A stretch of DNA of 39,898 nt from Desulfobacterales bacterium. GTDB taxonomy: Bacteria > Desulfobacterota > Desulfobacteria > Desulfobacterales > G020353555. The DNA is taken from NCBI GenBank assembly GCA_020353555.1, contig CP070697.1, positions 6,678,865-6,718,762 of the forward strand, in the 5' to 3' direction. Positions 14,764 through 39,593 of the stretch are shown piece after piece; positions within the stretch are counted from its first letter, which is position 1, and every line of letters starts with the position of its first letter. Under the pieces are notes generated by a model. That model was not told the DNA's origin. It was given only the letters and a program-made list of their open reading frames with translations, and made no database searches. The position numbers and the translations under genes were made by a program.

Positions 14764-16382
<1,619 letters not shown>

Positions 16383-22190: not shown

Positions 22191-24704
22191 ATGGCAAAAG
22201 GTGAAACCCCCATCGTCAAGCGATCCCTTTATTCCTGGGTATTCGCAGGCAATGTCGGCCTTCAACTCCTGCTGTTGCTCATTATTGTCGTGATGGTTTT
22301 TACCCGGGTTCTACCCTTGGAAATGCAAAAACGCATCGTCAATGAGGCCATAAATTTACGAAAAATCGATTTGTTGTTGAGTTACTGCGGAATCTATTTG
22401 GCGGCCGTGGTTTTGGCCAACGGGCTCAAATACCTCAATTCGATGGTGACGACCGTTATCACGCAACGCGCGACCGCTAACATGCGCAAGGGACTATACC
22501 ACTACATTTTAACCCTGCCCTTAAGTTTTTTCCGCAACACGCAGCCGGGGATGGTGGTCAACTCGCTCGTCAACGAGCTGACGCTGCCGGCCAATTTTGT
22601 GGGCATGGCCGTGGCGGCGCCAGTCAGCAATGTGTTGACCTTGCTGGCGTTTGCCGGTTACCTGTTTCGGCTGAATCCGCTCTTGGCGGCGGTTTCCCTG
22701 AGTATTTACCCGATCGTCGTTTTTTTGGTTCCGATGCTGCAAAAAGGGGTCAACCGGGCCAACAAAAAACGCGTGGACACCGCCCGAACGTTATCGAGCG
22801 CCATCGCGGAATCCATTTCCGGCATTCATGAAATCCAGGGTAACGGCGCCTACGGCATCGAACACCGCAAGTTTGACGGTTTGGCGGATAAGCTGGAGAA
22901 AATTCGGGTCATCTGGAGCCTGTATCGCTTTGGCGTAAAGACGATGAACAATTTCTTCACCGGGCTGGGTCCATTTATCGTTTTCATTCTGGGCGGTTTC
23001 CTAACCATCAAAGGTCAGCTGGAATTGGGCGCCCTCGTCGCCTTTTTGTCGGCCCAGGAAAAGCTCTATGATCCCTGGCGGGAACTCATCGAGTTCTATC
23101 AGGTTTACCAGGATGGCGTGGTTAACTACAACCGCACCATGGAATATTTCAATGTGGAACCGGAGCATGCCCTGGAACCTCAAGGCCGCCCGCCGTTTGA
23201 ACTGGACGGCAGTGTCGAAGTCAAGGATCTGCAATTTGAAACCTCCAGCGGGATTCGCCTGCTCGACGGCATCAATCTTTCACTAAAGCCCGGCGAGCAC
23301 CTCGCTCTCGTCGGTTTTTCCGGCAGCGGCAAAAGCACGTTGGCGCTGTGCATCGGACAGTTGTATAAGTATACGGACGGTCATGTTTTGATCGGCGATA
23401 AAGAAGTCGCCGAGCTGAGCAAAAAAGACATGGTCATCAATATCGGTTTTGTCTCCCAGAGCCCCTTTATTTTCGAGGGAACCCTCGAGGAAAATCTTCT
23501 TTACTCCTGTAAGGCGATGATCGACGGGCAGGGCCAGCCGGTGAACAATCATTTGCCGACCCTGGATGACATCATTGCGGTGCTCCATCAAACCGGCATT
23601 TTCGTGGACGTGCTCCGCTTCGGCCTGAACACGATTTTGGCCCGGGACGAGCATGAAGACCTGGTGGAAGTGCTCACGCGGGTTCGTAGGAATTTTCAGC
23701 GCGATTACGGAGAGGAACTCGCCGATTATGTGGAATTTTTTGATGAAAACAAATATCTTTACTACTCCAGTGTGGCCGAAAATTTGACCTTCGGCGCGTC
23801 CGCCAAAGAAGCCTTCAACAATTCGAATTTGGCTAAGAACGAATATTTTCTGAACTTTCTGGATCGGGCGGATTTGACCCGGCCGTTACTGAGTTTGGGC
23901 GCCGCGCTTTCCAAACAAACGGTGGATATCTTGGGCAATCTTACCCCCGATGCGGTGTTTTTCGAACAAAGCCCCATCACCGCCGATGAGTTGGATGATT
24001 ACAAATTGATCGTTGAACACCAAAAAAGGCAGAAACTGCATCAGCTTACAGGTACCGATCGCCAGAGACTCCTTGAACTGGCCTTGCGGTTTACCCCGGG
24101 GATCCATAAAATGGCCGCACTTCCTCAGATGCTGGAAACCCTTATCCTGGAGGGACGCGCCCTTTTCCGCGAAAAAATTTCCGCCGACGACCCCGGAGCA
24201 TTTTCGTTTTATCAGTTAGCGGAATACATCTATTCCCAGACGATTCTGAACAATATCTTCTTCGGTAAAACCAAAACCGCCAGCCCTCAAACCCAGGAAA
24301 AAATTGACCAGAGCATTGTGCAGCTGCTGATCGAAGAGGATCTTTTGGAAACGATTATTGAAATCGGTATGCGCTATGACGTCGGCACCAAGGGAGACAA
24401 ACTGTCCGGAGGGCAGCGCCAAAAACTGGCGATTGCCCGCGCGTTTCTCAAGGCCCCCAGGATTTTGATTATGGACGAAGCCACCTCCGCCCTGGACAAC
24501 AAATCCCAGGCCCGTATCCAGAATCTGCTCGAAACCCGCTGGAAAAACAAAAGCACGTTGATTGCCGTGGTGCACCGGCTGGACACCATCAAAAACTTTG
24601 ATCGGGTGGCGGTGATGAAGGCCGGCAAAATCGCTGAAATGGGCACTTACAACGAACTCATAGCCCAGAAAGGAATGCTATATGAACTCGTCGGAAAAAA
24701 ATGA
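22191..24704 (+). CDS. ABC exporter with fused membrane and ATPase domains and a ~250-residue insertion in the ATPase
   Basis: An 837-residue ABC half-exporter. Transmembrane domain about 15-310 (six helices), then a nucleotide-binding domain with Walker A GFSGSGKS (375-382), Q-loop Gln423, signature LSGGQ (738-742), Walker B ILIMDEA (758-764) and H-loop His795. Q-loop to signature is normally about 60 residues; here it is 315. Three similar segments occur: FIFEGTLEENLLYS (426-439), YLYYSSVAENLTFG (522-535) and YIYSQTILNNIFFG (679-692), each like the stretch following a Q-loop, so the helical subdomain seems to have been repeated. Start ATG at 22191 follows GGAGG by eight bases; the frame is open to 22137. 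Substrate unknown; it overlaps the next gene and sits in a partner-switching locus. Confidence 0.9.
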   Translation: MAKGETPIVKRSLYSWVFAGNVGLQLLLLLIIVVMVFTRVLPLEMQKRIVNEAINLRKIDLLLSYCGIYLAAVVLANGLKYLNSMVTTVITQRATANMRKGLYHYILTLPLSFFRNTQPGMVVNSLVNELTLPANFVGMAVAAPVSNVLTLLAFAGYLFRLNPLLAAVSLSIYPIVVFLVPMLQKGVNRANKKRVDTARTLSSAIAESISGIHEIQGNGAYGIEHRKFDGLADKLEKIRVIWSLYRFGVKTMNNFFTGLGPFIVFILGGFLTIKGQLELGALVAFLSAQEKLYDPWRELIEFYQVYQDGVVNYNRTMEYFNVEPEHALEPQGRPPFELDGSVEVKDLQFETSSGIRLLDGINLSLKPGEHLALVGFSGSGKSTLALCIGQLYKYTDGHVLIGDKEVAELSKKDMVINIGFVSQSPFIFEGTLEENLLYSCKAMIDGQGQPVNNHLPTLDDIIAVLHQTGIFVDVLRFGLNTILARDEHEDLVEVLTRVRRNFQRDYGEELADYVEFFDENKYLYYSSVAENLTFGASAKEAFNNSNLAKNEYFLNFLDRADLTRPLLSLGAALSKQTVDILGNLTPDAVFFEQSPITADELDDYKLIVEHQKRQKLHQLTGTDRQRLLELALRFTPGIHKMAALPQMLETLILEGRALFREKISADDPGAFSFYQLAEYIYSQTILNNIFFGKTKTASPQTQEKIDQSIVQLLIEEDLLETIIEIGMRYDVGTKGDKLSGGQRQKLAIARAFLKAPRILIMDEATSALDNKSQARIQNLLETRWKNKSTLIAVVHRLDTIKNFDRVAVMKAGKIAEMGTYNELIAQKGMLYELVGKK

Positions 24705-25206
24705 CGCCACTGCGCCCTGCGAATTTATGGATAATCTGAACCTTTTGAGACAAACCTACTTTTTTTCCAGCTTTCCCCTGGAAACGCTCAAGGTGATCGC
24801 CTATCTTTGCGCCCGCGAGAAGTTCAAAAAGGGCCTAGCCCTGTTCAATCAGAACGAAGACGACGGCCAAGCCTTTTTAGTCATCGACGGTAAAGCCAGG
24901 CTCGAGCGCGAAGACGACGGCAAAATGACGGTAATCCGAGAATGTCATGCCGGAGAGTTCCTGGGAGGTCTGACATTATTAGGCGGCAGACACCGCCTTT
25001 TTTCTTTGATCGCCGTTGAAGACACTACTTGCCTGATCATACACCGTGAGAAGTTTACCAAAGCGATCAAACAATTCCCTGATATCATGCCTAAAATTTT
25101 GAAGGCCGTGGTCGATAACATCAGCACCTGGGAAGAACGCTTTTTGACGGAACGCGCGGAGGAGTGCGGCGGTTGCCTCGAAAAACTGGGCGTCAGTCTG
25201 GTCTGA
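24682..25206 (+). CDS. Cyclic-nucleotide-binding-like domain protein
   Basis: A 174-residue cytoplasmic protein with one CNB/CRP-type beta-roll (about 28-145: KFKKGLALFNQNEDDGQAFLVIDGKARL...) and a short helical tail with a CGGC pair near the end; there is no DNA-binding domain. The phosphate-binding cassette is degenerate: the usual FGE is replaced by LGG in EFLGGLTLLGGRHRLFS, so cyclic nucleotide binding is doubtful. The gene begins 23 bases inside the ABC exporter gene, so the two are translationally linked and the protein may regulate the transporter. Start ATG at 24682 is consistent with the overlap. Confidence 0.82.
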   Translation: MNSSEKNDATAPCEFMDNLNLLRQTYFFSSFPLETLKVIAYLCAREKFKKGLALFNQNEDDGQAFLVIDGKARLEREDDGKMTVIRECHAGEFLGGLTLLGGRHRLFSLIAVEDTTCLIIHREKFTKAIKQFPDIMPKILKAVVDNISTWEERFLTERAEECGGCLEKLGVSLV

Positions 25207-25342: not shown

Positions 25343-25481
25343 TATTAAGAAAACACACCATGAAGCACGGACGGTTGCCATGGCGTCGATTTAAATTACC
25401 TTGAAAATTTTTCCAAATTTTAGGAAAATAAATACAAAGACGCGCCAAGATCAGGCTGGGAAATGCGGAAGGTTAAAGGTG

Positions 25482-25919
25482 ATGGCGAAAAAGACGTATA
25501 GTTTTGAACTCAAAAGCAACCTGTCGGAGTTGGATCGACTCTGTCACAATCTGCAGCAGTTTTGCCATTCGATGGGGCTGCACCCCAAATGCCTGTTTGA
25601 GATCAACCTGGCCTTGGACGAGCTGTTTACCAACATCATTTCCTATGGCTTTCAGGACGATAAAGAGCATCAGATCAAATTCACACTGACACCGCAAAAA
25701 GATTTGCTGATTTTGTGCATTGAAGATGACGGCGTACCCTTTAACCCCATTGAAGCGGATACGCCGGACCTGGAATGTTCCATCAGTGAATGCAAAATCG
25801 GTGGCCTCGGTATTCATTTGATCAAAAATCTAATGGATGAGGTGTGTTATCGAAGATGCCGCGGAAAGAATATTTTGACGATGAAAAAGAAAATTGACGC
25901 CCACGAAGCCGCAGGATAA
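25482..25919 (+). CDS. RsbW/SpoIIAB-like serine kinase (anti-sigma factor type)
   Basis: A 145-residue GHKL-fold kinase. N-box EINLALDELFTNIISYGF (near 41-58), ATP-lid motifs IEDDGVPFNP and GGLGIHLIKNLMDEV. These are the hallmarks of RsbW-type proteins that phosphorylate a STAS antagonist and sequester a partner, often a sigma factor. ATG at 25482 gives the usual start; the frame is open back to 25401. The STAS partner lies 64 bases downstream. No sigma factor gene is in the window, so the target may be encoded elsewhere or may not be a sigma factor. Confidence 0.9.
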   Translation: MAKKTYSFELKSNLSELDRLCHNLQQFCHSMGLHPKCLFEINLALDELFTNIISYGFQDDKEHQIKFTLTPQKDLLILCIEDDGVPFNPIEADTPDLECSISECKIGGLGIHLIKNLMDEVCYRRCRGKNILTMKKKIDAHEAAG

Positions 25920-25983: not shown

Positions 25984-26316
25984 ATGGAAATCATAGAGGA
26001 AAAACAAAATGCGGTTAATATCTTTAAGCTGAATGGTCGCCTCGATTCAAATACATCCCAGGGGTTTGAGAAGAAAATTTTTCAGGCCATCACGGACGGC
26101 TCGAAAAGTTTGGTTATCGATTTCAAAAATCTCGATTACATATCGAGCGCCGGCCTGCGCGTTATTTTGAAGGCCACCAAAGCCATCAAACGTGAAGAAG
26201 GTCAAATCATGCTATGCGATATGCAAGATTACGTCAAAGAAGTCTTTGAAATCGCCGGCTTTGATTCCTTTCTGCCGATCGTCCCCACGATGGAAGATGC
26301 CCTGAAATCGTTTTAG
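25984..26316 (+). CDS. STAS-domain anti-sigma factor antagonist (RsbV/SpoIIAA-like)
   Basis: A 110-residue single STAS domain, MEIIEEKQNAVNIFKLNGRLDSNTS, with the phosphorylation motif YISSAGLRV at about 56-64. It is expected to be phosphorylated by the RsbW-like kinase just upstream and dephosphorylated by the two RsbU-type phosphatases at 18054 and 19501. GGGAGGAAAG precedes the ATG at good spacing. It is the last plus-strand gene before the minus-strand operon. Confidence 0.93.
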   Translation: MEIIEEKQNAVNIFKLNGRLDSNTSQGFEKKIFQAITDGSKSLVIDFKNLDYISSAGLRVILKATKAIKREEGQIMLCDMQDYVKEVFEIAGFDSFLPIVPTMEDALKSF

Positions 26317-26466: not shown

Positions 26467-26865
26467 CTAGCACAAACCAATTAAACCACGTTGACCCAGT
26501 TCGCGAATAAAGCGCGTGACGGCCACCTCAGCCTCCTTCGGCTGCAATTGATGCTTTGCAGCAAACGCCTGGATGACCTGGCGCACCGAACGTTTGCCGT
26601 CCACCAAATCCCAAACTTCGGTACCCAGTGCATCAAGCTGCAGCTTTTTGGTCTGGACGCGACCCTCCGGTCCACCGAAGCGTTTGACCCACCCGGCGAT
26701 CCAAGGGCGCATGATGGTCGGGTAATTGATGATGACCTCATTGGCCGTCAGCCGCTCCACGACGGCCTGGACGTTTTTGACCGGTGTGAGGTTCAGCGCT
26801 TCGGCCCGGTGCAATTGCTTTGCATGGGATCTGCGAGAGCCTCTGGTTCTAAATACTCTCATAGC
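26467..26865 (-). CDS. PqqD-like protein
   Basis: A small protein of about 132 residues from ATG at 26865. The C-terminal half (LDALGTEVWDLVDGKRSVRQVIQAF...AVTRFIRELGQRGLI) matches the PqqD fold, the winged-helix recognition domain best known from RiPP biosynthesis. The N-terminal half is basic with LTPVKN and a IINYPTIMRPWIAGWVKRFG segment that looks amphipathic. Starts at 26880 and 26898 are possible; 26865 gives a 17-base overlap with the gene upstream. No radical SAM enzyme or precursor peptide is seen nearby, so a RiPP role is not supported; stand-alone PqqD-like proteins occur with unrelated genes. Confidence 0.72.
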   Translation of the reverse strand, partial: AMRVFRTRGSRRSHAKQLHRAEALNLTPVKNVQAVVERLTANEVIINYPTIMRPWIAGWVKRFGGPEGRVQTKKLQLDALGTEVWDLVDGKRSVRQVIQAFAAKHQLQPKEAEVAVTRFIRELGQRGLIGLC

Positions 26866-27775
26866 GTGCACAAATTCCATCGAGCAGTTGACGATCAAAC
26901 GCTCGATGTCCTTCCGCCCTGACCCCGAGGATACGGTTTTTTTCTTTCAAATGCCAAAGTCGATACCATTGATGGGAAGGTTTGGATCGCAGAGGGTTCC
27001 ACCACCACCGCCAGCGGGTCGGCGGTGATAAGCTCCATTCAAGGCCCGGATAGCCGCCCGGCGTCACGGCCCAGGGCTTGCCCTCCGAGAATTGCGCCTG
27101 CGTTTTTGCGAACTGCGTCAAATTCCGCCCATTCAAGCAAACCGACGCCAAGCCCCAGCGATGCAACGCAATTCTTTGCGGACCCGCGGCAAAGGCAAGT
27201 TCAAATTTACCGGCCTCGAAACGATAGCGCACTAATTGGAATGTTTCCGGAACCGTAGCGCGAATATCAAAAATGGCCCACCGTATTTGGCTGTCCGGCG
27301 GGTGGTCTTGAAAATTGGCCAGGATACACGAGGCAATCTCGGGCACGGGCACGGGTCTGCGGTGGAAGAACTGGATGAGCGTGGCCCTCCGGCAGACCGG
27401 ACAAAACAGGATGACGCCCCGGCCACCAGCGGCTTGGGCCTCCCAGGAAAACCCGCTAACTTCGAAATCAGAAAGGGCGGTTTGCCAATCTCGCGGCAGG
27501 GAGCATTCTTTTAAGGCTCTCCCGGGTTGTTTCCCCAGGAGGGCCGCCAACTTTTTCAGATGGGCCTGATGGGAAAAATTGCCTTTAATGAGCCCCCATT
27601 TGATTTCCAGGGCCGGCCCCTCCGCGTCTTCGAGCAAAAGGTGACAAATCCCGACTGGACTCACTTCCCAGTCCCCGGGGGCTGGAAAACGAATGCCGTT
27701 CCAGGCGACTTCTTGCGCGGAATTGGTCATAGCGTTCAGCGGTGGCTGGGTAAAATGACGGCGGATCGTGCGCAC
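26849..27775 (-). CDS. Unknown protein, 308 residues
   Basis: I do not recognise a family. The protein appears soluble, rich in tryptophan (about 14 Trp) and basic, with a possible metal pair CPVC in ILFCPVCRRATLIQFFHRR, and a Trp-rich segment near the C-terminus (TRWRWWWNPLRSKPSHQW). The sequence pattern suggests two similar beta-rich halves: AWNGIRFPAPGDWEVSPVG near the start and RATVPETFQLVRYRFEAGKFELAF in the second half. GTG at 27775 is taken because AAGGGG lies eight bases upstream, overlapping the stop of the preceding gene; ATG at 27730 has no such site. It overlaps the PqqD-like gene and probably works with it. Confidence 0.72.
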   Translation of the reverse strand: MRTIRRHFTQPPLNAMTNSAQEVAWNGIRFPAPGDWEVSPVGICHLLLEDAEGPALEIKWGLIKGNFSHQAHLKKLAALLGKQPGRALKECSLPRDWQTALSDFEVSGFSWEAQAAGGRGVILFCPVCRRATLIQFFHRRPVPVPEIASCILANFQDHPPDSQIRWAIFDIRATVPETFQLVRYRFEAGKFELAFAAGPQRIALHRWGLASVCLNGRNLTQFAKTQAQFSEGKPWAVTPGGYPGLEWSLSPPTRWRWWWNPLRSKPSHQWYRLWHLKEKNRILGVRAEGHRAFDRQLLDGICARYESI

Positions 27776-27787
27776 TGGCCCAACCCC

Positions 27788-28408
27788 TTAGCGGGGAATG
27801 AACAAATCCCAGCCGCTCAACTCCTGATTCTTGGGTTCCCACTTCTGTCCCCGCAAGCCCTCGCGCGGGTCGAGCTGCTTTTCTTTATAGCAACGCTGAT
27901 CGTCCTCAACCAAATTTGTCATGGTGAGTTTGATCGCGTTGCCGAGCTTTTCTTCCTCGTCCATGGCATTGTGCTGCAGAATCAGGCTGATGCGATTATT
28001 ATCTTCATCGGTAAAAGACCATTTCCAGGCGATGAGAATGTGAAAAGGGTCCCCCCGATACTCGTCCGGCTCGCCGAAGCGCTCTTTGGTGAGTTTCAGG
28101 AGTTTTTCAAAAAAACGTTTACTCGCATCGTCATATTTGAGTTTGATCCGCACGATTTTGCCCGGAGCGGCGCAGGTTCCGTACGCGATAAGCCCGCTTT
28201 TGATCCCCTCCAGGGGTTTTATCTCCACTTCCTCGACACTTTCCAGATAGCGGATCGGTAAAGCCGTCTCCAGGATGACTTGATCCGCAAAATCTTTGAT
28301 GTTTTTGTTCAGCACGAACCCTCCCACCCCGTGCGGAGCTTCGGCGAAGCCCACGCCGGCCGAAAGGATCAATGCCACCGCCATGCCCACAATTACCGTC
28401 CTTTTCAT
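27788..28408 (-). CDS. Secreted protein of unknown family
   Basis: A 206-residue protein with a clear Sec signal peptide (MKRTVIVGMAVALILSAGVGFA, predicted cleavage after residue 22). The mature part has a GVGGFVLNKNIKDFAD start, a beta-rich middle (IVRIKLKYDDASKRFFEKLLKLTKERFGEPDEYRGDPFHILIAWKWSF) resembling small periplasmic proteins that measure or bind a ligand, and a polar tail. Family not identified. It has two cysteines and no lipobox, so a soluble periplasmic location is likely. It is separated from the OPT-like gene by about 260 bases but follows it on the same strand. Confidence 0.78.
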   Translation of the reverse strand: MKRTVIVGMAVALILSAGVGFAEAPHGVGGFVLNKNIKDFADQVILETALPIRYLESVEEVEIKPLEGIKSGLIAYGTCAAPGKIVRIKLKYDDASKRFFEKLLKLTKERFGEPDEYRGDPFHILIAWKWSFTDEDNNRISLILQHNAMDEEEKLGNAIKLTMTNLVEDDQRCYKEKQLDPREGLRGQKWEPKNQELSGWDLFIPR

Positions 28409-28669
28409 AATGACCCCCGAACGCTGAAAATTCGAAACCCCAATGCTTCCAACCGTCTTAAATCGCGGTCATTCGCTATTCCTATTGCGGAATGGACACC
28501 GCCTAATCGAACCTTTTATGCCATATCCGTTGTCTTTTGTCGATCTCTTAAATCTTGGAGGACAGGGTAAACCCATTAGGTACTTTTGGGGGGATGGAGG
28601 TCTTGGCGGGAAGACCAGATCCCCCGTAGGTATCACCCCCAGCGGCACGGTGACTGCCGATTTGAGAAA

Positions 28670-30631
28670 TCAATACGCCAACCGTCCCAATGATTTCAGT
28701 ATCAGCGTAACCCCCATGGAGAACATCCCGGTCAGGCCCATCCCACAGGAAAATCCGGCCAGTAGGACGGGAGCATATTGGCGCCACATGGCGCCGTAGC
28801 GTTTCAGGAAGAAAAAACGGCCCAGCAGGGCGCCCACGACTTCCAGGATAAGTCCGTGGGGCGTGCTCTGGCCCAGCCCCCGCACCATCCCGTAAACCAA
28901 AAGTATCGGCAGTCCCAAAAGGGTCAGAATCGCATAGGTGATTACGCCGAGCCCCATACCCGCCAAAACATAAACGCCGTTGAGGGCCTCGTAGAAAAGG
29001 GAATTCCCTTCCAGCGTGGACGTTTGCATCAAGAGCGTATTGAGCGCCTGCAGGTGCCACAACTCCTGTGCAAAAGGATAAGCGCTGGAAGGAATGGGCG
29101 CCAAGCGCCAGATGAACTGGGAAAACAGCAGACTGGCCACCATCACCACCGGAAAAACGACGATTTCAGACTTTATGATTCCCCGGATGCTTGTGCCGGT
29201 CAGCTCGATTTCGCGGAAATTCACGGTGGCCTGACCATAGTTGTGGATGGGAATCGGTGCGTACCAGATCTCAATGCCCTGATAGCCGAAGTACTTGGCT
29301 CCGGCAATAAAACTGGCCTCCCGCACCAACGGTAGGCTCACAAACTGGCCGGCGATCCCTTCCATGCGAGCCGTAATGTAGGATACAAGCGGAGTATAGA
29401 CAAAACCGTAGGCCAGAAAGAAAATCCACGGAAAACTCGGCACCAGCCAGACGCAGAGCAACACATAGGAAGTGGTGGAAAAAACATAAATGCCGATGGA
29501 AATCCAGAAATTAAAATCGCCCCGGCCCGGCGGCGGCCGGAATAAATCCCTGAAGCTGCCCCGTTGCCCGACGGCATTTTGGCCAAAGGATCGCAAGACA
29601 TGCCAAATGCCCACCAGGGCGATGGCCAGCCCCAACCCGATGCTGAAGCTCATGTAAAAATCGAAGTTATTGGCGAAGACCGTATCTACCGTTCCCATGC
29701 CCGGGTGCCATCGCGAGAGGATTCCGTGGCGAAATAGGATTGGATTGGCGACGACCGTGATGACGAGTCCGATCAGACCACCGATCACGGCCCAGAAGGG
29801 CAGGACCATACCGACGAAAATAAGCCCGAGATCAAGCTGAATGCCGGTGGCCACCGCCGGCAGGATCTCTTCCGTGTGCCGCGTAAGCTCCACCCAGGGA
29901 ATCGGAATCAGCCGGATTGGTTCGGTAAACAAAAGACCCGAAAGGGTGGGCAAGAGCACATAGATCCCGCCGAAGCCAAGTCCGATAACCCCCCCAATGG
30001 AGAATATGCGCCATTTCCAGCTTTTCTGCTTATCTTCGGTGGACTCGGCCAAAGCCATGGTCCCCAGAGCCGCCACCGGCGCCATGGGAAAGGGGAGCTT
30101 CTCCACATCCGAAGTGATGCGGTAGAGGGCATACCCCAAGCCAAACTGGTCGATGCGCTGAATGATCTGGGTGCCAACCAGCAGAAGGATCGGAATCAGC
30201 CAGTCCCGATGGAAAAAAGTCCGTTCCGCCAACGAAATCGATTCCGGGGAAGGTGCGACCCAGTTAGGGATAAACTCGGTTAAGCCCAGCATCCGGGCAG
30301 CATCGGATTGGACCAGATATTGATTCCACAGGAGGCCCTGAAAGGGTGTGTGCAGCGCCGCACCGGCCATGTAATAAAGCAGGAAAATCTCCTGCTGCTT
30401 GAGTTCGCTGTAAGAGCGTTTGGCCATTTCGGCAAAGAGGATAATCGTCACCCAGCGCGCCGCCGGACCGATTCCGGTGCCGATCACCAGCTGCAAATAC
30501 ATACTGCCCGGCATCATCAAAAAGCCGATAAAGACCGCCCCGACAATCGTTTTCCAGTCAAAGCCTTCTTCGAAATGATCCGGGGCTTTTAAGAGATCCC
30601 TGTATTCCTGGAGTTCTTTGTCTTCGTACAT
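28670..30631 (-). CDS. OPT-like polytopic membrane protein
   Basis: A 653-residue integral membrane protein with about 14 hydrophobic segments. It starts with a 25-residue acidic cytoplasmic tail then DWKTIVGAVFIGFLMMPGSMYLQ. The C-terminal half has FREIELTGTSIRGIIKSE, WRLAPIPSSAYPFAQELW, and ALLGRFFFLKRYGAMWRQYAPVLLAGFSCGMGL, which resemble the oligopeptide/metal-peptide transporter (OPT) superfamily; this is recollection of the family pattern, not a search. Substrate unknown. It follows a second large membrane protein gene of a different family, in the same operon. Confidence 0.75.
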   Translation of the reverse strand: MYEDKELQEYRDLLKAPDHFEEGFDWKTIVGAVFIGFLMMPGSMYLQLVIGTGIGPAARWVTIILFAEMAKRSYSELKQQEIFLLYYMAGAALHTPFQGLLWNQYLVQSDAARMLGLTEFIPNWVAPSPESISLAERTFFHRDWLIPILLLVGTQIIQRIDQFGLGYALYRITSDVEKLPFPMAPVAALGTMALAESTEDKQKSWKWRIFSIGGVIGLGFGGIYVLLPTLSGLLFTEPIRLIPIPWVELTRHTEEILPAVATGIQLDLGLIFVGMVLPFWAVIGGLIGLVITVVANPILFRHGILSRWHPGMGTVDTVFANNFDFYMSFSIGLGLAIALVGIWHVLRSFGQNAVGQRGSFRDLFRPPPGRGDFNFWISIGIYVFSTTSYVLLCVWLVPSFPWIFFLAYGFVYTPLVSYITARMEGIAGQFVSLPLVREASFIAGAKYFGYQGIEIWYAPIPIHNYGQATVNFREIELTGTSIRGIIKSEIVVFPVVMVASLLFSQFIWRLAPIPSSAYPFAQELWHLQALNTLLMQTSTLEGNSLFYEALNGVYVLAGMGLGVITYAILTLLGLPILLVYGMVRGLGQSTPHGLILEVVGALLGRFFFLKRYGAMWRQYAPVLLAGFSCGMGLTGMFSMGVTLILKSLGRLAY

Positions 30632-30643
30632 GTCAGAGGTTCC

Positions 30644-30692
30644 GGGTTACGGATTGCGCGGTACGCGCTTCGGGTTGCGGGTGACGTGGGGC
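30644..30692 (+). repeat. Heptamer repeat, OPT-like/DUF6785 spacer, left arm
   Basis: Seven in-phase units: GGGTTAC, GGATTGC, GCGGTAC, GCGCTTC, GGGTTGC, GGGTGAC, GTGGGGC. A short reverse-complement arm (CGCAATC, CGCGACT) lies at 30791-30804, reaching the stop codon of the neighbouring gene. Confidence 0.65.
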
Positions 30693-30803
30693 CCGTTTGG
30701 CAACGGCCAATCACCTCCTCCCCAAAGCATCACAAAACGCGGAGAAAGACTCGAGCCAATCGCAAAAAATGCTGTGGATTAAGCCTCACTCGCAATCCGC
30801 GAC

Positions 30804-32843
30804 TCAGTCCGGTAGGACCAAGTAACTGGAATGGCTGAAGAGCCCGATGATGGCCCAGGTGCCGGCCATGAAAAAATCCCCGATGATCAAACCCACAAAG
30901 AAGTTGCGCAGTTTTTTAAACAAAACCACTCCACCATAACGCATGCAAAGCGCATTGCACAGCCAGCCCACAAAAAAACTGAACCACAGCGTCTGCATGG
31001 AGAAGCTGTAGGCCGTCAGATACCCGATCGGATGGATTGGCCACCAGTAAAACCGGTGATAACAGGTTACCAGGCCCAACATAATGGCGGCTCCGGCCAG
31101 GGAGAATATCAGCACCCATTTTCCGGGCTCGATCGGGGATTCAATCAATGTGTAGATATTATCGTAGACCGTTAGGGTGGTCCGTGTCGCCCAGTCCAGT
31201 TGGAGCTCGCGGATCCCGAACTTGTAAGAAAGAGTCAGCATGGCCAGCAAGGAAACGACCACACCGGCGGCCAGCATGACCGCTAGGCAGACAAAAATTC
31301 TGCGAGTGTTGCGGGCCCCATCGACGACCTTGCGCGCATGCAGCAAAGACGGCATGAGGGATTCCCGCAGATCCACGAAAAGGACCTTTTGGATAATCGC
31401 CGCGACCAAAATCCCCATACCGGTAAACATCCTGACGCCGAAAAAGGCCGTTATTCCATCAATTGGGGCCGCGCTGAGCGTGAAATAGGCAATCCCGCCC
31501 TGGCAGATAACCCGCGTGGCCACCAGGGTAAAAAGAAAAAAAGCGCCGACCACCAAAAAAGAAACCAGCAAGGGAATACCGAAATAATGACACCACACCA
31601 CGATTCCGCATCCTCCGGCCACAAACCCCCAAAAGGCCGTTCGGGTGGAAAGCCAGCCGGATTCCGCATCGACCTCCTTTTTGAGACCTAGGCCGACCCG
31701 CACGGTCTCGAGAAAATGGAATCGGGCCAGCCAGGCCAGAAACACAAAAAAAACCAGATAAGCTCCAATCATCTGGGTTTCCTCGGGCCGGGATAGGGCT
31801 GGACCGAATGTGACCCCTAGCGCCGCCGCCGGAATATTGATGCCCAGGACGCTCAACAAACCGATCAACAATTCTCCCGCAATAAAGAAAAACCAGAAGG
31901 AAAACGAGATCTGCTTCGATGTCAGGAAGGCAAAACCGATAAAAGCCGGATAAATATATATCTTGAGTTTGTAAAACCCCGCGAATAAACCGGTTTTTGA
32001 GAAATATTGGCCCGCCAGAATCAATGTCGGTATCTGGGGGATCTCAGGATTATAAAAACTCAGGCCGTTCATCGTATGCAGAAAGACCGGAACCAAGAGG
32101 CCGGCCAGCATAAAGCGATTGGCGAAAAAACGGCCCAGCGCGTTCTCGTCCATGGCTTCCTGCATCAACAGAGGAACGCGCAGCAGGGGAAAATTCATCC
32201 GTTCATTATAAAGCGGCTGTTTGCTGAGCAGACTGACAATACACGCCATCACGAAATAACAAAGGAAGATAAAACCGCCCCAGGACAGCAGGGGGAGCAA
32301 CCAGGCCTCCCAGGGTATCTGCCGGAGAACCTCCCACCAGCCCAACTGCCGACCTCCCGTAAATCCATTGTAGAGGTCGGCGATCGCCGCTTCACTTTGA
32401 GGGTACCAAATTCGCGGCATAAGCGGGTGCAGGACTTCTTCCCAGCGGTTTTCAACGGTGGCAAAGTGATAGGGCGCCGTCAGATTGATAAAGAAGGTGC
32501 GGGCCAGTCCGGTCCAGGCGACTCCCGAAACGACAACCATCAGGGCCCAGACTACCAGGACCTCCTTGCCGGTCAGCAATTCCCGGTCTTTGAAAATCCA
32601 GCGGATCGCCCCGATTAAAATCATCAGCCATACCAGAATGTAAAAGGGTGCCAACGGAAAATGGCCGCCGCCCAGGGGTGTTGCTTGACGATAAGCATTA
32701 TTGAAAGGCGTGATCAGGCAGATTACCAGCGCCAGCAACATTCCCAATGAAAGGGCCCGCCCCCGGACCCTGTCGCCGGTTGGAGGGTCTTTATCCTTTC
32801 GCAATGCATCCGGGGTTTTGAAACTCGGGGGGGTTGGTGTCAT
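30804..32843 (-). CDS. DUF6785-like polytopic membrane protein
   Basis: A 679-residue integral membrane protein with about 14 hydrophobic segments. A soluble N-terminal tail of about 30 residues precedes the first helix; PFNNAYRQATPLGGGHFPLAPFYILVWLM and, after the third helix, PYHFATVENRWEEVLHPLMPRIWYP are typical of the DUF6785/DUF6784 membrane proteins found mainly in PVC-group bacteria and Armatimonadota (from memory). The function is unknown. Its start lies 53 bases inside the end of the giant M28-FtsX gene, so expression is coupled. The ribosome binding site is weak. ATG codon 34 (MLLALVICLITPF) is a less likely alternative start. Confidence 0.8.
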   Translation of the reverse strand: MTPTPPSFKTPDALRKDKDPPTGDRVRGRALSLGMLLALVICLITPFNNAYRQATPLGGGHFPLAPFYILVWLMILIGAIRWIFKDRELLTGKEVLVVWALMVVVSGVAWTGLARTFFINLTAPYHFATVENRWEEVLHPLMPRIWYPQSEAAIADLYNGFTGGRQLGWWEVLRQIPWEAWLLPLLSWGGFIFLCYFVMACIVSLLSKQPLYNERMNFPLLRVPLLMQEAMDENALGRFFANRFMLAGLLVPVFLHTMNGLSFYNPEIPQIPTLILAGQYFSKTGLFAGFYKLKIYIYPAFIGFAFLTSKQISFSFWFFFIAGELLIGLLSVLGINIPAAALGVTFGPALSRPEETQMIGAYLVFFVFLAWLARFHFLETVRVGLGLKKEVDAESGWLSTRTAFWGFVAGGCGIVVWCHYFGIPLLVSFLVVGAFFLFTLVATRVICQGGIAYFTLSAAPIDGITAFFGVRMFTGMGILVAAIIQKVLFVDLRESLMPSLLHARKVVDGARNTRRIFVCLAVMLAAGVVVSLLAMLTLSYKFGIRELQLDWATRTTLTVYDNIYTLIESPIEPGKWVLIFSLAGAAIMLGLVTCYHRFYWWPIHPIGYLTAYSFSMQTLWFSFFVGWLCNALCMRYGGVVLFKKLRNFFVGLIIGDFFMAGTWAIIGLFSHSSYLVLPD

Positions 32844-35800
32844 CTTTGGTTTCTTTCTGATCGGAACTTGCTCCCAATTCTTGCTCAGCTTCCGCCAACA
32901 AATGTTCGTAGTGCGCTTTGGACGCCAGATCGAAGGACCGCCATACTAACAGCTGTCTGCGTATTTGATGCAGAAAGGTTTTGTTGATCCGGTGCCAGGC
33001 ATTGGCTTCGCCGGATTCACGGATCAGGCGCACCCGGATTTCCAGAAATCCGGGTTCACCTCCGGCCGGCAGGAAGGCCAGCTCCACTTGCTGCATGATA
33101 CCGAAGTCAAAGGGGGCCAGCCAGACGCTGGAACTGACTTGAAGACAGGCTTCGAATTCACATTCCTGTTCGGGACATGTGTTTTCAACTTCCGAAATAC
33201 CCGGCGCGACGTGGCAGACAAATCCGAATTCAATATTGCCGGTTGAGAACATCCCGTGGGATACATCCTGGTGTCCCTGAAAATAATCGTAAAGATATCC
33301 GCCGACACTGCGGTGCTCCCGGTAGCGCATCAAAAAAGGCAGCGTCAGTTCGAGCTCATTTCCTTGGGACTCCGGCAGCGTCCAGGATCGGTTCACATCC
33401 GGAATGGCGATTTCGCCGGCCACCTTGGACGGATAAATGACGGAGACCAGCACCACGATAATCACCAGGAGCATCGCCGCCACACCGGCCCATGACGAAT
33501 AGTTCACTGTAATTCCGGCCCACAGCGACGTCGCCGCAAAGAGTTTGGCGGTGGTCTGGGCCAGCAAGTAGCCCAGCACGACACTCAGGACCGCCAAGGC
33601 CAGAGCCTCGGCAATGAACAGAAATGACACATGGGACGGCGCCAAACCCACCGAAGTGTAAATGCCGATCTCCCGTTTTCTCTCATACACACTGCCGATC
33701 ATGGTGTTTAAGACAATGAAGACCGAGATGACCAGGGGAATGAGAATGTTCGGCACCCCGCTGTAACTCATGGTGTCGCTGGCATGATACAGATAGGTGC
33801 CATCCGGTTCGCCGCTGAAAAGGGACAGTCCGAAACGATCCACCAGATTCTGAGCCGAGGTTTGGATGGAGGTCGCCGGCTGGGGACGAATGGCAACCCC
33901 CTTGAGATGCCCGCCGGCGGCCAGCAGCGTGCGGTAAGGAATGATCAGCGTCAGATCACCGGAAATGTGCTGATATTGGCTCTGAAACTCCTGCACGTCT
34001 TCGCCGGACTCCAGGGCTTCGACCTCCACTTCCGTCAGCTCGGTGGTAACTTCCCGCGGAAAGGTCACCGGGGTCAGCGGTTCGCCGTCCAGGTCGAGCC
34101 GGTTCTGCAATTTGGAACCTGCAAAAACACCGACCACGTCAAACGGCATCCCCCACAGGGTGACCGTCGTCCCCTGGAGACGGCCGGGATCGATGCCTAA
34201 CTTCCGCGCCAAACGCTCCGGCAATAGAACCGCCTGCCGTTCGTCGGCCGCCAGCCACCGTCCGCCGACCAGAATATCGTCCAATCCGGACACCTGGGCT
34301 TCTGCATGCGAAAGTCCCACCAGACCCTGAGCCTCAAAAACCTGGTCTTCAAAACGAACGGGGATGCGGGGCGCCCGGGTTTTATCCTCGTCCTCCAACC
34401 ACACCCGTGGGACCGTCAGCCCTTGGCCGGCAAACGCATTGGATATGATGCCCAGGGCTTCTGGTGGCAGATTTTGCCAATTAAAGTTCTTCAACAGAAA
34501 GCCCTGATAAGGCGCGCTGCGCTGGAACAAAAGACGGGCATGGTGCCGCATGGATTTGACGGAGGTGAAACTCATGATGGTAAAGGTGAGAATCACCAGC
34601 GTGGCACAGGTTAGGGCGGTTCGCAACCGGCGGCGTCTTAAATTGCTCACTCCCAACAAGAAAGCGGCGACAAAAGCTTTCCAACGACCGATCTCACCGG
34701 CCTGCGCCAGTTGGGCCCGTGTCTGGAGCCGGGTCATCTCCTCCTCAAAGCGAAAGAAGATAATGAGCGTCACCATCAAGGAAAGTCCCATGATGAAAAA
34801 GGCCAGAATCACCACCATCGGGCTATAGGCGAGTTGGAAAGCGGGGTGGACGTTGTAGATCAAAGCGATCAAAAGGATCAGAATGGTACAGAAGGCAATG
34901 ATACGTTTGTAGATGTCGGAGTAGGAAAACAGGAGACGCTCCAGGCAAAATGCAAAGGGAACAAACAGGGCAATGTAAAACAATACTCCGTAAAGGACAT
35001 CTTTCTGTGTTTTTTCCACATCCTCATAAACCCGGCTGGCCAGGGCCCACGATCGGGCACTGGCTTCGGAAAAGCGATCGTATCTTTTATTCGCAAGCGC
35101 GGTTTCAGCCGTTTCTAAGGCCGCCAACCCCTCTTGCTCGAGCCGGCGGATACGGTCATTGAAAATGCCGCGCGCCTCCAGGTTGGCAATCCGGGGTCCC
35201 AGCAGGGTCCACATATCCCGGGCCACCCGAAATTCCGTCATGTGCAGGAAGGGCCATTTTTCCACCATGTACCCGGCCCCTTCGGGCTTATTTTCCGTGG
35301 CATTCAGCAAAACAAGTTTGTTGCGCAGAATGGTATCGGAAAGGGTCATCTTAAGAGGGGTCCCCGCCTCCAGAAAGATGGAGGTGATGACGGAGGACCA
35401 GGTGTCGAGTCGGCTCATAAACCAGCGCAGGGGATCGGCCTCCCGCCGCCCGTCAATCACATTGGGTTTCGTCAGATACCGAAATGTACGCGGTTCCAGC
35501 AAGTTAAACAGGGTGGTCCCGTTGCAGGCAAACATCACCAGGTCGGTTTCCATGAATCGGCGCTGCATTTTCACCCGATAGGCATCCTTGCCGGTTTGTT
35601 TTTTATCGATGGTCCAGATGACGGACCCGGTCAGCGGGTCGAATTTATACCCTTCGAGAATGACTTTGTGAAAGCTGTGTTTGCTGTCGGCCACGCCCCG
35701 GATCTGAAATTCTCCCAAGTGATCGACCATGACATGGTAACGGGCCGGACCTTGATAGGCCAACAGGACGGTTCCCGGCGCGGGCTGGTCCGCGAAAAGT

Positions 35801-37872
35801 TCGCCATGCCGGAGAAATTTGGCCCGCCCGGTCAAGTCGGAAAACCCGTTGCGCGGGTAAATATCGGCATTCCATTTGGGGGCCTGCGCCAAATGGCGGA
35901 TCAGCCCGCACACCAAGGCACTTTGCTTGAGCGCATATGCGATGTTCAGCTTCTCGGCCGTGTCGTAAGGGGTTCCCCACGTCGGCCGGGCATCATAGGT
36001 CGTCACCAAGCTGATACCATGATAACCCGCCAGGGCGGTCACCTCCCCGCCTAAAGGTGGCCGATCAAGAAAATAACTCTGCCAGGAAGCGCGCCGGCTG
36101 GGCCGCAAAGTATCTTGAAACAGACCGGAAAGTCCCTCCGCTTGCTCCAGTTGGCGGGCCCCTTGCCGCAAAACCTCGTCCAGCTCACTGTAGGCGGCCA
36201 CGCGGTTGATGCGCGGCCGGAAGGGATAAAGCCAGCCGTAGTTGAAAGCGCCGAACCCGTCGCCGTGGCTGGACAGGTGCAACGAGACGGCTGCCACCAG
36301 GTCAAAGGCCTTGACCTGTCCGCGAAAATTGCGAGCACTTTCTACTTGTTCAAGCTGAATCTTGGCATCGGTCAGGATGGCTCTTTGATCTTGCAGTGCC
36401 TTGGGTACCAGGCGAGCGAGAATTTCGCGCTCTTCGAGGGGAAGGTCTTTAAAATCGGTACGCCAGAGCAACCGGCGCAACGCCTGCCTTTCCTGGGCCA
36501 GCTGCTTGATAACATTCGGGTCAACTTCATCTTCCGTTTGCAGCCGAAGGCGCATCAGGTGACGGGAAACACTGTCCGCCTCGGTCTTGACGCGCTCATC
36601 CAGGGCTTCTTTAAAGGCACGGCCCGCTTGCTCTTCCCCGGATTCAGCTTGTGCGGCGCTTTCAAACGAGGGTTCGGACAGGGCGCGGATCGTCTGGCGC
36701 GTCTCGGAAATAAGCGCTTTGAGCGCTCTTTTACTATCTCTTAAGTCCTTTGATCGGGCTGAGAGACTCCAAACGAGTTCACGCATTCCGGCCAATGCCT
36801 GGGCATGCCCGCCGGTCGCCACCAGCAGAACCGATCGTTGGGGAGGATGGCGCTTCAAAAGCCGGGCCGAAGCCAACAGGGTCGCCACACCGCAGGCCTC
36901 GTCAGCTCCCGGAGACAGCCCCGGAACGAAGGCGGTGCTGTCGTAAAAGGCGTCCACCATCACCAGCTCTTCGCCCAGCTTGGGATCGGTGCCGGGAATT
37001 AAGCAATAAATATTTTCCGCGGTAACGTTCTGCCAGGTCATCTCGGACACCAACCGGATCTCGGCGGCGACGCTTCCTTCCGGTAAGGTCTCAAAGGTAC
37101 CAAAATGCGCGCGCGCTTCGCTCAAAGACATCCAGAAGCGCGGAAACTGGATCGGTGATAGCTCCCGTTTCTCTTCGAAAAACATTTTGGACGATGATCC
37201 CCGATCGACATAGATCAGGGCTTGGGCCCCCAAATTCGCTGCATGCAGCCAGTTTTTACCGGACTCGAGCTCCATCAAAACGATGGCGCCCGCGATTAAT
37301 TTGCCGTTAAAATCAGCCAGCTCACCCGCGCCGACATAAACCAGCGGGCCGCTGACGCCAGGGGGGGGGATGGTTTGGGGCGTAATCGCGTTGGCGCGCA
37401 CAGGATGGATGGGAATCGTCAGGTCACGGCTGAGAAAGGTCAGGGTGCTTTGCCCATGGCGGATCACCGGTACGCTAAATTGGTGTGCACCCACATCTTC
37501 AAAGCCGAGTTCGGCAAATCTTTCAAGGATATAGGCGCCGGCCGCCGCGTTGCCCGGCGTACCGGTGCTGCGGTCGCCCAAAGATGCCAAGGTCCGGATG
37601 ACATCCATGAACTCGTCGGAAGGTGTCTTCGCATTTGAACCGGCCGCCCCAGGCGTCGCAAGAAAACCGCCCAAAAGAACTAAAAAAAGTAAAACGATCC
37701 ATTGACTCCAGCGCGAGGGTCGCCCGGGATGCCGGTCCCGCGGCGCCGGTCGCTGGTTGCGGGCGTCTGCGGTCTGGAAATTATTGACGAGACCCCGGAT
37801 GCCTGATTCGTGGTCCCGGCACCCGAATAAGCGATGCATGAACATTTCCGCTTCCAATCTCTGGTTTGCCAT
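32791..37872 (-). CDS. Giant fusion: degenerate M28 peptidase domain + FtsX-type permease
   Basis: A 1693-residue membrane protein. Order: basic tail (1-56); membrane anchor (57-77); M28-like domain in two parts (about 85-365 and 520-665, with a PA-like insert near 165-280) split by a charged helical insertion (366-520); beta-rich region (about 690-800); coiled-coil (about 900-950); three membrane helices (about 958-1042); FtsX helix (about 1082-1103); large periplasmic MacB-like region (1104-1370); three FtsX helices (1372-1395, 1418-1445, 1455-1480) with ERKREIGIYTSVGLAPSHV; cytoplasmic C-terminal domain (1490-1693). The peptidase metal ligands look mostly replaced: DAFYDS for the usual AHxDS, ATGGHAQ for the EE segment, GTPYDT for YHTxxDT; only the Asp in GADEACGVA remains. 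ATG at 37872 lacks a good ribosome site; ATG at 37845 is an alternative. Confidence 0.85.
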   Translation of the reverse strand: MANQRLEAEMFMHRLFGCRDHESGIRGLVNNFQTADARNQRPAPRDRHPGRPSRWSQWIVLLFLVLLGGFLATPGAAGSNAKTPSDEFMDVIRTLASLGDRSTGTPGNAAAGAYILERFAELGFEDVGAHQFSVPVIRHGQSTLTFLSRDLTIPIHPVRANAITPQTIPPPGVSGPLVYVGAGELADFNGKLIAGAIVLMELESGKNWLHAANLGAQALIYVDRGSSSKMFFEEKRELSPIQFPRFWMSLSEARAHFGTFETLPEGSVAAEIRLVSEMTWQNVTAENIYCLIPGTDPKLGEELVMVDAFYDSTAFVPGLSPGADEACGVATLLASARLLKRHPPQRSVLLVATGGHAQALAGMRELVWSLSARSKDLRDSKRALKALISETRQTIRALSEPSFESAAQAESGEEQAGRAFKEALDERVKTEADSVSRHLMRLRLQTEDEVDPNVIKQLAQERQALRRLLWRTDFKDLPLEEREILARLVPKALQDQRAILTDAKIQLEQVESARNFRGQVKAFDLVAAVSLHLSSHGDGFGAFNYGWLYPFRPRINRVAAYSELDEVLRQGARQLEQAEGLSGLFQDTLRPSRRASWQSYFLDRPPLGGEVTALAGYHGISLVTTYDARPTWGTPYDTAEKLNIAYALKQSALVCGLIRHLAQAPKWNADIYPRNGFSDLTGRAKFLRHGELFADQPAPGTVLLAYQGPARYHVMVDHLGEFQIRGVADSKHSFHKVILEGYKFDPLTGSVIWTIDKKQTGKDAYRVKMQRRFMETDLVMFACNGTTLFNLLEPRTFRYLTKPNVIDGRREADPLRWFMSRLDTWSSVITSIFLEAGTPLKMTLSDTILRNKLVLLNATENKPEGAGYMVEKWPFLHMTEFRVARDMWTLLGPRIANLEARGIFNDRIRRLEQEGLAALETAETALANKRYDRFSEASARSWALASRVYEDVEKTQKDVLYGVLFYIALFVPFAFCLERLLFSYSDIYKRIIAFCTILILLIALIYNVHPAFQLAYSPMVVILAFFIMGLSLMVTLIIFFRFEEEMTRLQTRAQLAQAGEIGRWKAFVAAFLLGVSNLRRRRLRTALTCATLVILTFTIMSFTSVKSMRHHARLLFQRSAPYQGFLLKNFNWQNLPPEALGIISNAFAGQGLTVPRVWLEDEDKTRAPRIPVRFEDQVFEAQGLVGLSHAEAQVSGLDDILVGGRWLAADERQAVLLPERLARKLGIDPGRLQGTTVTLWGMPFDVVGVFAGSKLQNRLDLDGEPLTPVTFPREVTTELTEVEVEALESGEDVQEFQSQYQHISGDLTLIIPYRTLLAAGGHLKGVAIRPQPATSIQTSAQNLVDRFGLSLFSGEPDGTYLYHASDTMSYSGVPNILIPLVISVFIVLNTMIGSVYERKREIGIYTSVGLAPSHVSFLFIAEALALAVLSVVLGYLLAQTTAKLFAATSLWAGITVNYSSWAGVAAMLLVIIVVLVSVIYPSKVAGEIAIPDVNRSWTLPESQGNELELTLPFLMRYREHRSVGGYLYDYFQGHQDVSHGMFSTGNIEFGFVCHVAPGISEVENTCPEQECEFEACLQVSSSVWLAPFDFGIMQQVELAFLPAGGEPGFLEIRVRLIRESGEANAWHRINKTFLHQIRRQLLVWRSFDLASKAHYEHLLAEAEQELGASSDQKETKDDTNPPEFQNPGCIAKG

Positions 37873-37970
37873 CGTCCGGGCAAATGTTCAATTCTTCAGA
37901 AAGGTTTTCTCAAGCCTGCTTTGACCAATCTGAAAATCGTTTGAGGGCTAAACGGCCATCGACCCGTGCC

Positions 37971-38708
37971 TCACTCCCGCGTGCCGATTTGACCGATTGA
38001 AATCGAAAGCTCTTCACGATCTTCGATTTTGTCGACTCGTCCGTCGCGGATCCACACCACCTGGTCGGAAACGTTCAACATCTTAAAATCATGGGTGGCG
38101 GAAATCACCGTAACATTGCGCTCTTGGCTGAGACGCTTCAACAGGGCGATCACATCTTCCCCGGTATTCAAATCAAGGTTGCCAGTGGGCTCATCCGCCA
38201 GAATGATGGCGGGATCATTGGCCAAGGCGCGGGCAATCGCCACCCGCTGCTGCTGCCCGCCGGAAAGCTCAAAAGGCTTATGGTTGAAACGATCAGCCAG
38301 TCCCACCAGCTCCAGCAGCTGGAGCCCTTTCTCTACCGCGGCATCGTTATTCATCCCGGCAAAAATCATGGGCAGGGTGACATTTTCCAGCGCCGTCATC
38401 ACCTGGATGATGTTGAAGGTCTGAAAAATATAGCCAATCTTACGGCAACGCAGCCAAGCCAATTCGTAGGCGTCGAGTTGGGCAATGTCGACTTCGTCGA
38501 TGAAGACCTTACCAGAGGTGGGTTTGTCCAGCCCGCCGATCATATTAAATAACGTGCTCTTCCCGGACCCGGACGGTCCCATGATGGAAATATAATGGCC
38601 CTTGGCGATTTCGAGATCGATCCCTTTTAAAGCCTGGACTTCCACCTTACCCAGTCGGAAAGACTTGGTGACTCCGGTCACACGGACGATATTGCTGGAT
38701 TCTGCCAT
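37971..38708 (-). CDS. ABC transporter ATPase, LolD/MacB type
   Basis: A 245-residue ATPase with Walker [10 protein letters not shown] (44-52), Q-loop Gln96, signature LSGGQ (148-152), Walker B with ADEPTGNLD (171-179) and H-loop His206. These match the FtsE/LolD/MacB group that energises FtsX-type permeases. ATG at 38708 follows AGGA at good spacing and gives the normal length; the frame is open to 38822. It lies between the small FtsX gene and the giant FtsX fusion, so the likely transporter is two ATPase copies with two different permeases. Confidence 0.93.
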
Positions 38709-38859
38709 CGTTGCGTCCTGATTACCTGGGTCGTGTCGTTTCACTCTTATCCCCGAAAAGCCGTGCGGAAAAGCCGCACGCGTAAAGCCAATGGTAAAAT
38801 AAGGCATCCGGTCCCCCGCCACTTCTGACCCGCCCTCAGAGACCCGAAACCGCCATAGG

Positions 38860-38901
38860 CTTTGAACTTGCAGCCTCTTTTTCCGGCCTTCTGCCCTCTA
38901 C
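38860..38901 (-). repeat. Degenerate heptamers running into the end of the small FtsX gene
   Basis: 7-base spaced units CTTTGAA, CTTGCAG, CCTCTTT, TTCCGGC, CTTCTGC, CCTCTAC, the last overlapping the stop codon of the FtsX gene. More degenerate than the arrays at 2704 and 2874. Confidence 0.4.
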
Positions 38902-39593
38902 TGCTCCACCCGCATGGCCTCCACCGGCTGCATCCGCGCGGCGACCAGGGCCGGGTACAAAACGCCGAGGAGGCTCAACAAGCACCCGACGCCGGTGGCG
39001 ATCCCCACGGAAAAAAACACACCGGTCCAGGAAACTTCGATTAGCGCCACGGTACCAAAGCGCAACACCGCGTTCAGCAGCGAAAAAAGGCCGCCGGCCA
39101 GGGCACCGGCACCGGCACCCGCCAAGCCTTGCATGCCGGCCTCAAGAATAAACAGTCGCAGGATAAAACGATCCAGCGCCCCCAAGCATTTCATGGTACC
39201 GATCTCACGAAATCGCTCGGTCACCGCCATGAGCTGGGCATTGACAATCCCCACCACGCAGACCAACAGGGAGAGGATCACAATCCACCTTTGCTTGGGG
39301 CTGCTGTCTACACGGGTGTCCTCAGCCCCCAGGTCGTAGCCGGAACGGACAACCGCCTGACGTAATTCGGGGTTCTGGGTGGCCAGAAGGCCATTGGCCA
39401 CCTCATTGCTGACACTGATGAAACCCAAAAACGAGACGGCCAGCACGAGACTCATGGTGGTAATCAGGGACCGGAAAAAGCGTACCTTGATGCTCTTCAA
39501 CGCAATCTCAATCGATTTAAGAAATGGCAGGACCACTAATCGGTCCCTTGAAAGTAGATTTTTTTTTGAACCGATGATTTGATCGCTATTCAT
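38898..39593 (-). CDS. Compact FtsX-type permease
   Basis: A 231-residue permease with four membrane helices (about 43-62, 103-122, 146-172, 190-214). The FtsX coupling segment TERFREIGTMKCLGA (125-139) and the C-terminal PALVAARMQPVEAMRVE are intact. Between helices 1 and 2 there are only about 40 residues, where MacB/LolC-type proteins carry a 200-residue periplasmic domain. It therefore keeps the membrane core but not the mechanical periplasmic arm; the large periplasmic part is supplied by the giant partner. First gene of the minus-strand operon; AAGGGA lies about ten bases before the ATG. Confidence 0.88.
   Translation of the reverse strand: MNSDQIIGSKKNLLSRDRLVVLPFLKSIEIALKSIKVRFFRSLITTMSLVLAVSFLGFISVSNEVANGLLATQNPELRQAVVRSGYDLGAEDTRVDSSPKQRWIVILSLLVCVVGIVNAQLMAVTERFREIGTMKCLGALDRFILRLFILEAGMQGLAGAGAGALAGGLFSLLNAVLRFGTVALIEVSWTGVFFSVGIATGVGCLLSLLGVLYPALVAARMQPVEAMRVEQ

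Follow-up and report, generated by a model that had tools for sequence, protein, structure and literature searches.

We analyzed a 39,898-nucleotide stretch of the genome of a Desulfobacterales bacterium (the window; contig CP070697.1, positions 6,678,865 to 6,718,762, from assembly GCA_020353555.1, which has a listed completeness of 79.57% and contamination of 4.72%) and find that it encodes a multigene ATP-binding cassette (ABC) system that is inherited together across Desulfobacterota. Five consecutive genes, g1 to g5, encode a compact FtsX permease, a LolD/FtsE-type ATPase, a giant fusion of an M28 peptidase-like head to a second FtsX permease, and two polytopic membrane proteins. These five genes are a co-inherited system of Desulfobacterota and not a chance neighborhood, and their products are predicted to work at the inner membrane of sulfate reducers and related bacteria. 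The three genes that follow (g6 to g8) are a second, movable module of the same system. Because an MsbA-type exporter encoded on the other strand, here termed ABCx, always occurs with these genes, the machine extends beyond the eight genes first described. We regard it as very probable that the whole set operates as one functional system.

The first-pass annotation of the window had described eight minus-strand genes at 26467-39593, and all eight open reading frames (ORFs) lie there, overlapping or separated by no more than 261 bp, with inner ATG codons as the probable true starts of g2 (about 38708) and g7 (about 27730). A search for terminator-like sites on the minus strand found none in the gaps from g1 to g8, which is weak evidence for joint transcription. 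The arrangement is far beyond chance because the identical gene order recurs in dozens of Desulfobacterota loci. In a sample of 198 genomes of the phylum, full-length g3, full-length g4, and g5 share one identical set of 12 genomes, a single further g4 match (G071) being a fragment (E 2.8e-4). A profile built from the insertion in ABCx alone picks out just these 12 genomes. All 12 also carry g1 and g2, the latter with 70-84% identity among relatives; the apparent loss of one or the other in G161, G162, and G187 proved to be an artifact of overlapping ORFs. The g6 and g7 genes are found in nine and six genomes, respectively, always among the 12 positives. These positives represent nine family-level groups; in one of them (f21) a single genome, G088, has the system while the other sampled members lack it. 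The coincidence of g3, g4, g5, and the ABCx insertion would have a probability of 1 in 5.4e18 under independence of the genomes, an assumption that does not hold.

Gene neighborhoods were compared in the best 80 of 224 g5 relatives obtained from a contig scan; these loci are from Desulfobacterota, among them Desulfatibacillum alkenivorans, Desulfopila, and Desulfogranum marinum. Among these, g4 adjoins g5 in 69 of the 70 loci where the upstream sequence is long enough, and the order g1-g2-g3-g4-g5 is kept in 40 of the 47 loci with about 9.3 kb upstream. A DUF6785 search of 395 genomes of the phylum placed 28 over the cut-off. In the 16 genomes newly reached in this way, which overlap in part with the 80-locus set and are not a fully independent sample, g5 lies beside g4 every time and g1 to g5 are complete in 11, some of the others being cut by contig ends. 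A search for g5 on plasmids found none. Even where g1-g2-g3 and g4-g8 are split apart, they stay in the same genomes. Homologs scattered without a conserved neighborhood were the outcome that the first-pass annotation had set against its own proposal; within Desulfobacterota the neighborhood is kept, and the system survives this test. The boundaries first given to it are not supported: the MsbA-type exporter and a cyclic nucleotide monophosphate (cNMP)-binding protein, both outside 26467-39593, belong to the system as well, and g6 to g8 are better described as a separable module.

The g1-g2-g3 core fits, by analogy, as an unfused asymmetric member of the Type VII ABC family that bears a dead-enzyme head. 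In the Type VII complexes described so far, ATP powers movements of periplasmic domains, and the family comes in several permutations, among them the LolCE heterodimers and BceB with its one domain (PMC5985334). In g1, hydropathy indicates four transmembrane (TM)-like segments, and the periplasmic core domain is absent. The g3 protein starts with an N-terminal TM segment, followed by a PA and M28 region with a long helical insertion, an unassigned domain, three TM segments, an FtsX region with a MacB-like periplasmic core, and a C-terminal cytoplasmic domain; its eight TM-like segments comprise the N-terminal one, the three after the M28 head, and four of FtsX type. Pfam scores are 47.2 bits for FtsX (PF02687) and 28.5 bits for MacB_PCD (cut-off 27), the latter domain being absent in g1, and the g3 profile also matches MacB. 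The core thus shows FtsX-type four-TM permeases, a MacB-like core between TM1 and TM2 (in g3 only), and an ATPase in which Walker A, LSGGQ, and Walker B are all present, as expected of Type VII systems.

The head of g3 matches M28 at 33.5 bits (cut-off 21.3), and the first third of the protein, PA domain included, gives a profile match to the aminopeptidase 2ek8 (1.2e-16). The residues expected to bind zinc and catalyze hydrolysis are substituted: HHDS has become AFYDS or similar (FYDS), EE has become AQ, and YHTPxDT has become WGTPxD. Both zinc histidines are lost in all 12 g3 relatives, which supports the earlier designation as a pseudo-peptidase, and the catalytic glutamate pair is lost in 10, half of it being kept in the other two (L065/L066). 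WGTPxD occurs in 12 of 12, and because this scaffold motif is invariant, the M28 fold has been retained although the zinc site is gone. Judged by these substitutions, the head is a PA+M28 aminopeptidase fold that is predicted to be enzymatically dead. The first-pass annotation had proposed an asymmetric FtsX ABC system that bears a pseudo-peptidase, and this is borne out as a conserved feature of Desulfobacterota.

Comparison with known systems places this core close to several without equating it with any. Like LolCDE, it pairs separate heterodimeric FtsX permeases with a LolD-like ATPase; unlike LolCDE, one permease (g1) has no periplasmic domain, and both g2 (LolD its closest model, 226.8 bits against a cut-off of 307.75) and g1 (40.5 bits against the LolCE equivalog cut-off of 362.45) fall under the thresholds. 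A LolCE-type gene that exceeds its cut-off is located elsewhere in the same genome. BceAB shares the asymmetry, with a large extracytoplasmic domain on one permease half and none on the other, but BceB is one fused protein, for which no M28 head is described (PMC5985334). In Escherichia coli, YbbAP passes hydrophobic molecules to the hydrolase TesA and so likewise joins a Type VII ABC motor to a hydrolase-fold periplasmic partner (PMC12646458). TesA, however, is a separate and active esterase, and YbbP is a fused permease that has 10 TM segments and two periplasmic domains, whereas here the two permeases are separate, one of them carries a dead PA-M28 head as a fusion, and g4, g5, and ABCx are further partners. 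The membrane half of g3 has named relatives among the PADLOC models, for which the sources searched gave no function. Residues 896-1532 match PDLC01991, CARF_m8--CARF_LolE_TM (2.7e-57, 192.5 bits), and also PDLC01990, so that the coil, TM, and LolE/FtsX half is homologous. The second model matched, CARF_Beta-galactosidase_LolE_TM, by its name and its length of 1791 positions likewise combines an enzyme-like domain with a LolE membrane portion, and the same membrane-half match is seen in three g3 relatives. Because proteins of the general build of g3 are already named in PADLOC, we do not regard the system as categorically new. The open-access literature that we searched yielded no characterized system with such a gene set, in line with the first-pass annotation, and no paper that joins an M28 peptidase with an FtsX-like permease or names DUF6785/6784.

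The two polytopic proteins are g4, with about 11 TM-like segments, and g5, with nine. The DUF6785-like label given earlier to g4 is secure (Table 1), but the OPT-like label of g5 is not upheld, and neither protein can be assigned to OPT (PF03169): that profile has no significant match anywhere in the genome. The g5 protein is the best conserved member of the system (71-91% identity in aligned loci), and its structure model failed (predicted local distance difference test, pLDDT, 37). No significant family was found for g5, g6, or g7 in Pfam and NCBIfam. A comparison of g4 with g5 by hhalign detected no homology, the g5 profile being shallow, and no internal homology was found among the g3 pieces, g6, g7, and the ABCx insertion.

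ABCx, the second ABC engine, has the ABC_membrane and ABC_tran domains of MsbA and other Type IV exporters. MsbA is its top model (305.6 bits), below the equivalog cut-off of 602, and NHLM bacteriocin exporters are one of the many other groups that it resembles. ABCx differs from MsbA in that the nucleotide-binding domain (NBD) is split by an insertion of ~230 amino acids, containing repeated stretches (..SSVAENLTFG..) that resemble the region after the Q-loop. The cNMP-binding protein lies beside ABCx in most contexts inspected, and in Desulfobulbales the two genes separate g5 from g6 and share their strand. The RsbW-like and STAS genes that follow in the window are conserved neighbors in part of the range only.

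The g6-g7-g8 block follows g5 in many Desulfobacterales and lies elsewhere in other genomes; g6 is not linked to g5 in most genomes. The signal peptide claimed for g6 is consistent with its hydrophobic N terminus. This protein has two invariant cysteines and a confident, mostly beta model (87.5), for which a fold search of the PDB returned no match below 0.001. No significant relative of g7 was found in Pfam or the PDB. The PqqD-like assignment of g8 is confirmed (Table 1); its gene comes after g6-g7 in many relatives and before g1 in G026.

Table 1. Genes of the system and its plus-strand neighbors, by position in the window
Feature	Coordinates	Strand	Basis
g1, compact FtsX permease, 231 aa	38898..39593	-	PF02687 58.1 bits; hydropathy
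g2, LolD/FtsE-type ABC ATPase	37971..38822	-	PF00005 119.4 bits; Walker A, signature, Walker B intact
g3, M28-FtsX fusion, 1693 aa	32791..37872	-	Pfam M28 + MacB_PCD + FtsX
g4, DUF6785+DUF6784 polytopic membrane protein	30804..32843	-	PF20581 547.7 bits; PF20580 121 bits
g5, polytopic membrane protein without Pfam family	28670..30631	-	hydropathy; alignment
g6, secreted/periplasmic protein	27788..28408	-	N-terminal hydrophobic signal-like segment
g7, soluble protein, no TM	26849..27775	-	hydropathy; probable start about 27730
g8, PqqD-like protein, 143 aa	26467..26898	-	PF05402 43.3 bits (cut-off 23.4)
ABCx, MsbA-type (Type IV) ABC exporter, 855 aa	22137..24704	+	ABC_membrane + ABC_tran; outside the interval first annotated
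cNMP-binding protein	24682..25206	+	PF00027 57.4 bits; overlaps ABCx end
RsbW-like anti-sigma kinase (HATPase_c_2), probable regulator	25401..25919	+	conserved in 26/80 loci
STAS anti-sigma-factor antagonist, probable regulator	25984..26316	+	conserved in 27/80 loci

The surroundings of the system in relatives suggest a role at the cell envelope. An Omp85-family protein lies beside g1 in some lineages, a GT28 glycosyltransferase precedes g1 in 22 loci, and a DUF2334 (polysaccharide) deacetylase does so in 18. In one clade (L100, L108, L125, L126, L131), TamB-like, Omp85-like, and arginase-family genes precede g4-g5, and g1-g2-g3 lie elsewhere. The Omp85, TamB, glycosyltransferase, and deacetylase neighbors point to the envelope and not to one substrate. 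As clues to a substrate, the arginase, an S58 peptidase, a poly-gamma-glutamate hydrolase, and TamB/Omp85 were rejected, each being lineage-specific.

How might such a system work? By analogy with MacB, LolCDE, FtsEX, BceAB, and YbbAP, two g2 ATPases would drive a heterodimer of g1, which has no periplasmic domain, and g3, which has one large periplasmic arm, and ATP binding would zip the stalk helices and shift the g3 head. We consider asymmetric mechanotransmission of this kind by g1-g2-g3 likely. Because the head is apparently unable to cleave as a zinc peptidase, it would act as a receptor, gate, or scaffold. The remaining steps are more speculative. The substrate may be amphipathic (a lipid, glycolipid, or lipopeptide) and could be taken to the outer leaflet by ABCx under the control of its cNMP-binding partner; g4 and g5 might serve as a channel or dock in the inner membrane, the Type VII arm might raise the substrate toward g6 and the outer membrane, and g7 and g8 could act on the cytosolic side. 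Export or extraction of an amphipathic substrate is a tentative proposal. Equally provisional is the idea of a two-engine machine, in which the Type VII lever with its dead head, the split-NBD Type IV exporter, DUF6785, and g5 would make up one pathway from the inner membrane to the periplasm for a new envelope substrate. As a whole, a co-inherited envelope machine built around an asymmetric Type VII ABC and serving an amphipathic substrate pathway is the best explanation we can offer, held with slightly less than even confidence.

Several observations weigh against this explanation. Phylogenetic relatedness inflates the co-occurrence figure, and ABCx is not linked to g1-g5 in several genomes. 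Only some lineages have the glycosyltransferase, Omp85, and TamB neighbors, none of which adjoins g1 in this genome, and g4, g5, and g7 have no fold assignment. The lift of an ABCx-delivered amphipathic substrate past g4/g5 toward g6 is argued from analogy and neighborhood only. One alternative is a sensing or signaling complex: the Type VII part would sense envelope state or a ligand through the dead M28 head and signal inward, in the manner of BceAB or FtsEX, with ABCx/cNMP and a SpoIIE-RsbW-STAS partner switch as output. Type VII complexes can function without transport, a cNMP-binding partner lies beside ABCx, a histidine kinase occurs in the G026 cluster, and the RsbW-like and STAS genes, kept in about a third of the 80 loci, have two SpoIIE proteins next door in this window. 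These regulators are, however, missing from some lineages and frequently encoded on the opposite strand, and two large polytopic proteins with a full Type IV exporter exceed what a sensor needs; we consider this alternative unlikely. Export of a ribosomally synthesized and post-translationally modified peptide (RiPP) or other peptide, with g8 binding the peptide, ABCx exporting it, and the aminopeptidase-like head binding it in the periplasm, would fit the PqqD-like nature of g8, the resemblance of ABCx to NHLM exporters, the peptidase fold of the head, the S58-family gene near ABCx in five divergent genomes, and a radical SAM gene near g8 in G026. That gene was seen in G026 only, and on the other strand; no precursor peptide or maturase gene is found in the conserved families, in several genomes no PqqD gene was seen next to the core, and the top ABCx model is MsbA, so that peptide export appears less likely still.

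The PADLOC matches of g3 and three relatives, together with the cNMP-binding protein, could also be read as a CARF-type defense or stress response, in which g3 would sense cyclic nucleotides arising from phage infection. Yet the PDLC01991 match ends at model position about 596 of 810, which leaves the last ~214 positions (the CARF part, by inference) unmatched in g3, and the C-terminal 201 amino acids of g3 match nothing in PADLOC when searched alone. No defense gene was noted in the loci inspected, and the strong conservation of g5 and its co-inheritance are unlike most defense loci, which makes this reading improbable. Oligopeptide uptake, with M28 trimming peptides and g4/g5 importing them as OPT transporters, would suit the M28 fold and the polytopic nature of the DUF6785 protein and g5; we disfavor it as highly improbable in view of the lost zinc histidines and glutamate pair, the absence of a significant OPT match in the genome, and the lack of a Pfam family for g5.

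The co-inherited envelope machine that we prefer gives DUF6785/6784, g5, and g6 a testable home beside a recognizable ABC motor, including in the cultured Desulfatibacillum alkenivorans, Desulfopila, and Desulfogranum. It would extend the Type VII ABC family by a fused dead-enzyme head, and the phylogenetic profile ties two types of ABC engine to one system, a link that is not visible from one locus alone. Should the substrate turn out to be a lipid or glycolipid, a hitherto unknown envelope layer would be indicated in this globally important group.

Further observations concern the genes around the system. The S58-family peptidase gene recurs near ABCx in L199, L200, L201, L202, and L203, with an HD-domain protein between in three of them. 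Desulfatibacillum alkenivorans (G036) carries a further pair of an FtsX permease and an ATPase, of ordinary type, near the system (L056:3-1617). Within the window, 18054-21735 encodes two SpoIIE-phosphatase proteins, a MASE10-HAMP-SpoIIE protein on the plus strand and a dCache-HAMP-SpoIIE protein on the minus strand, which with the RsbW-like and STAS genes make up a partner-switching set beside the system. Two ordinary queuosine biosynthesis genes, both on the minus strand, occupy 14982-17480: TGT at 14982-16052 and a member of the PF02547 family at 16383-17480.

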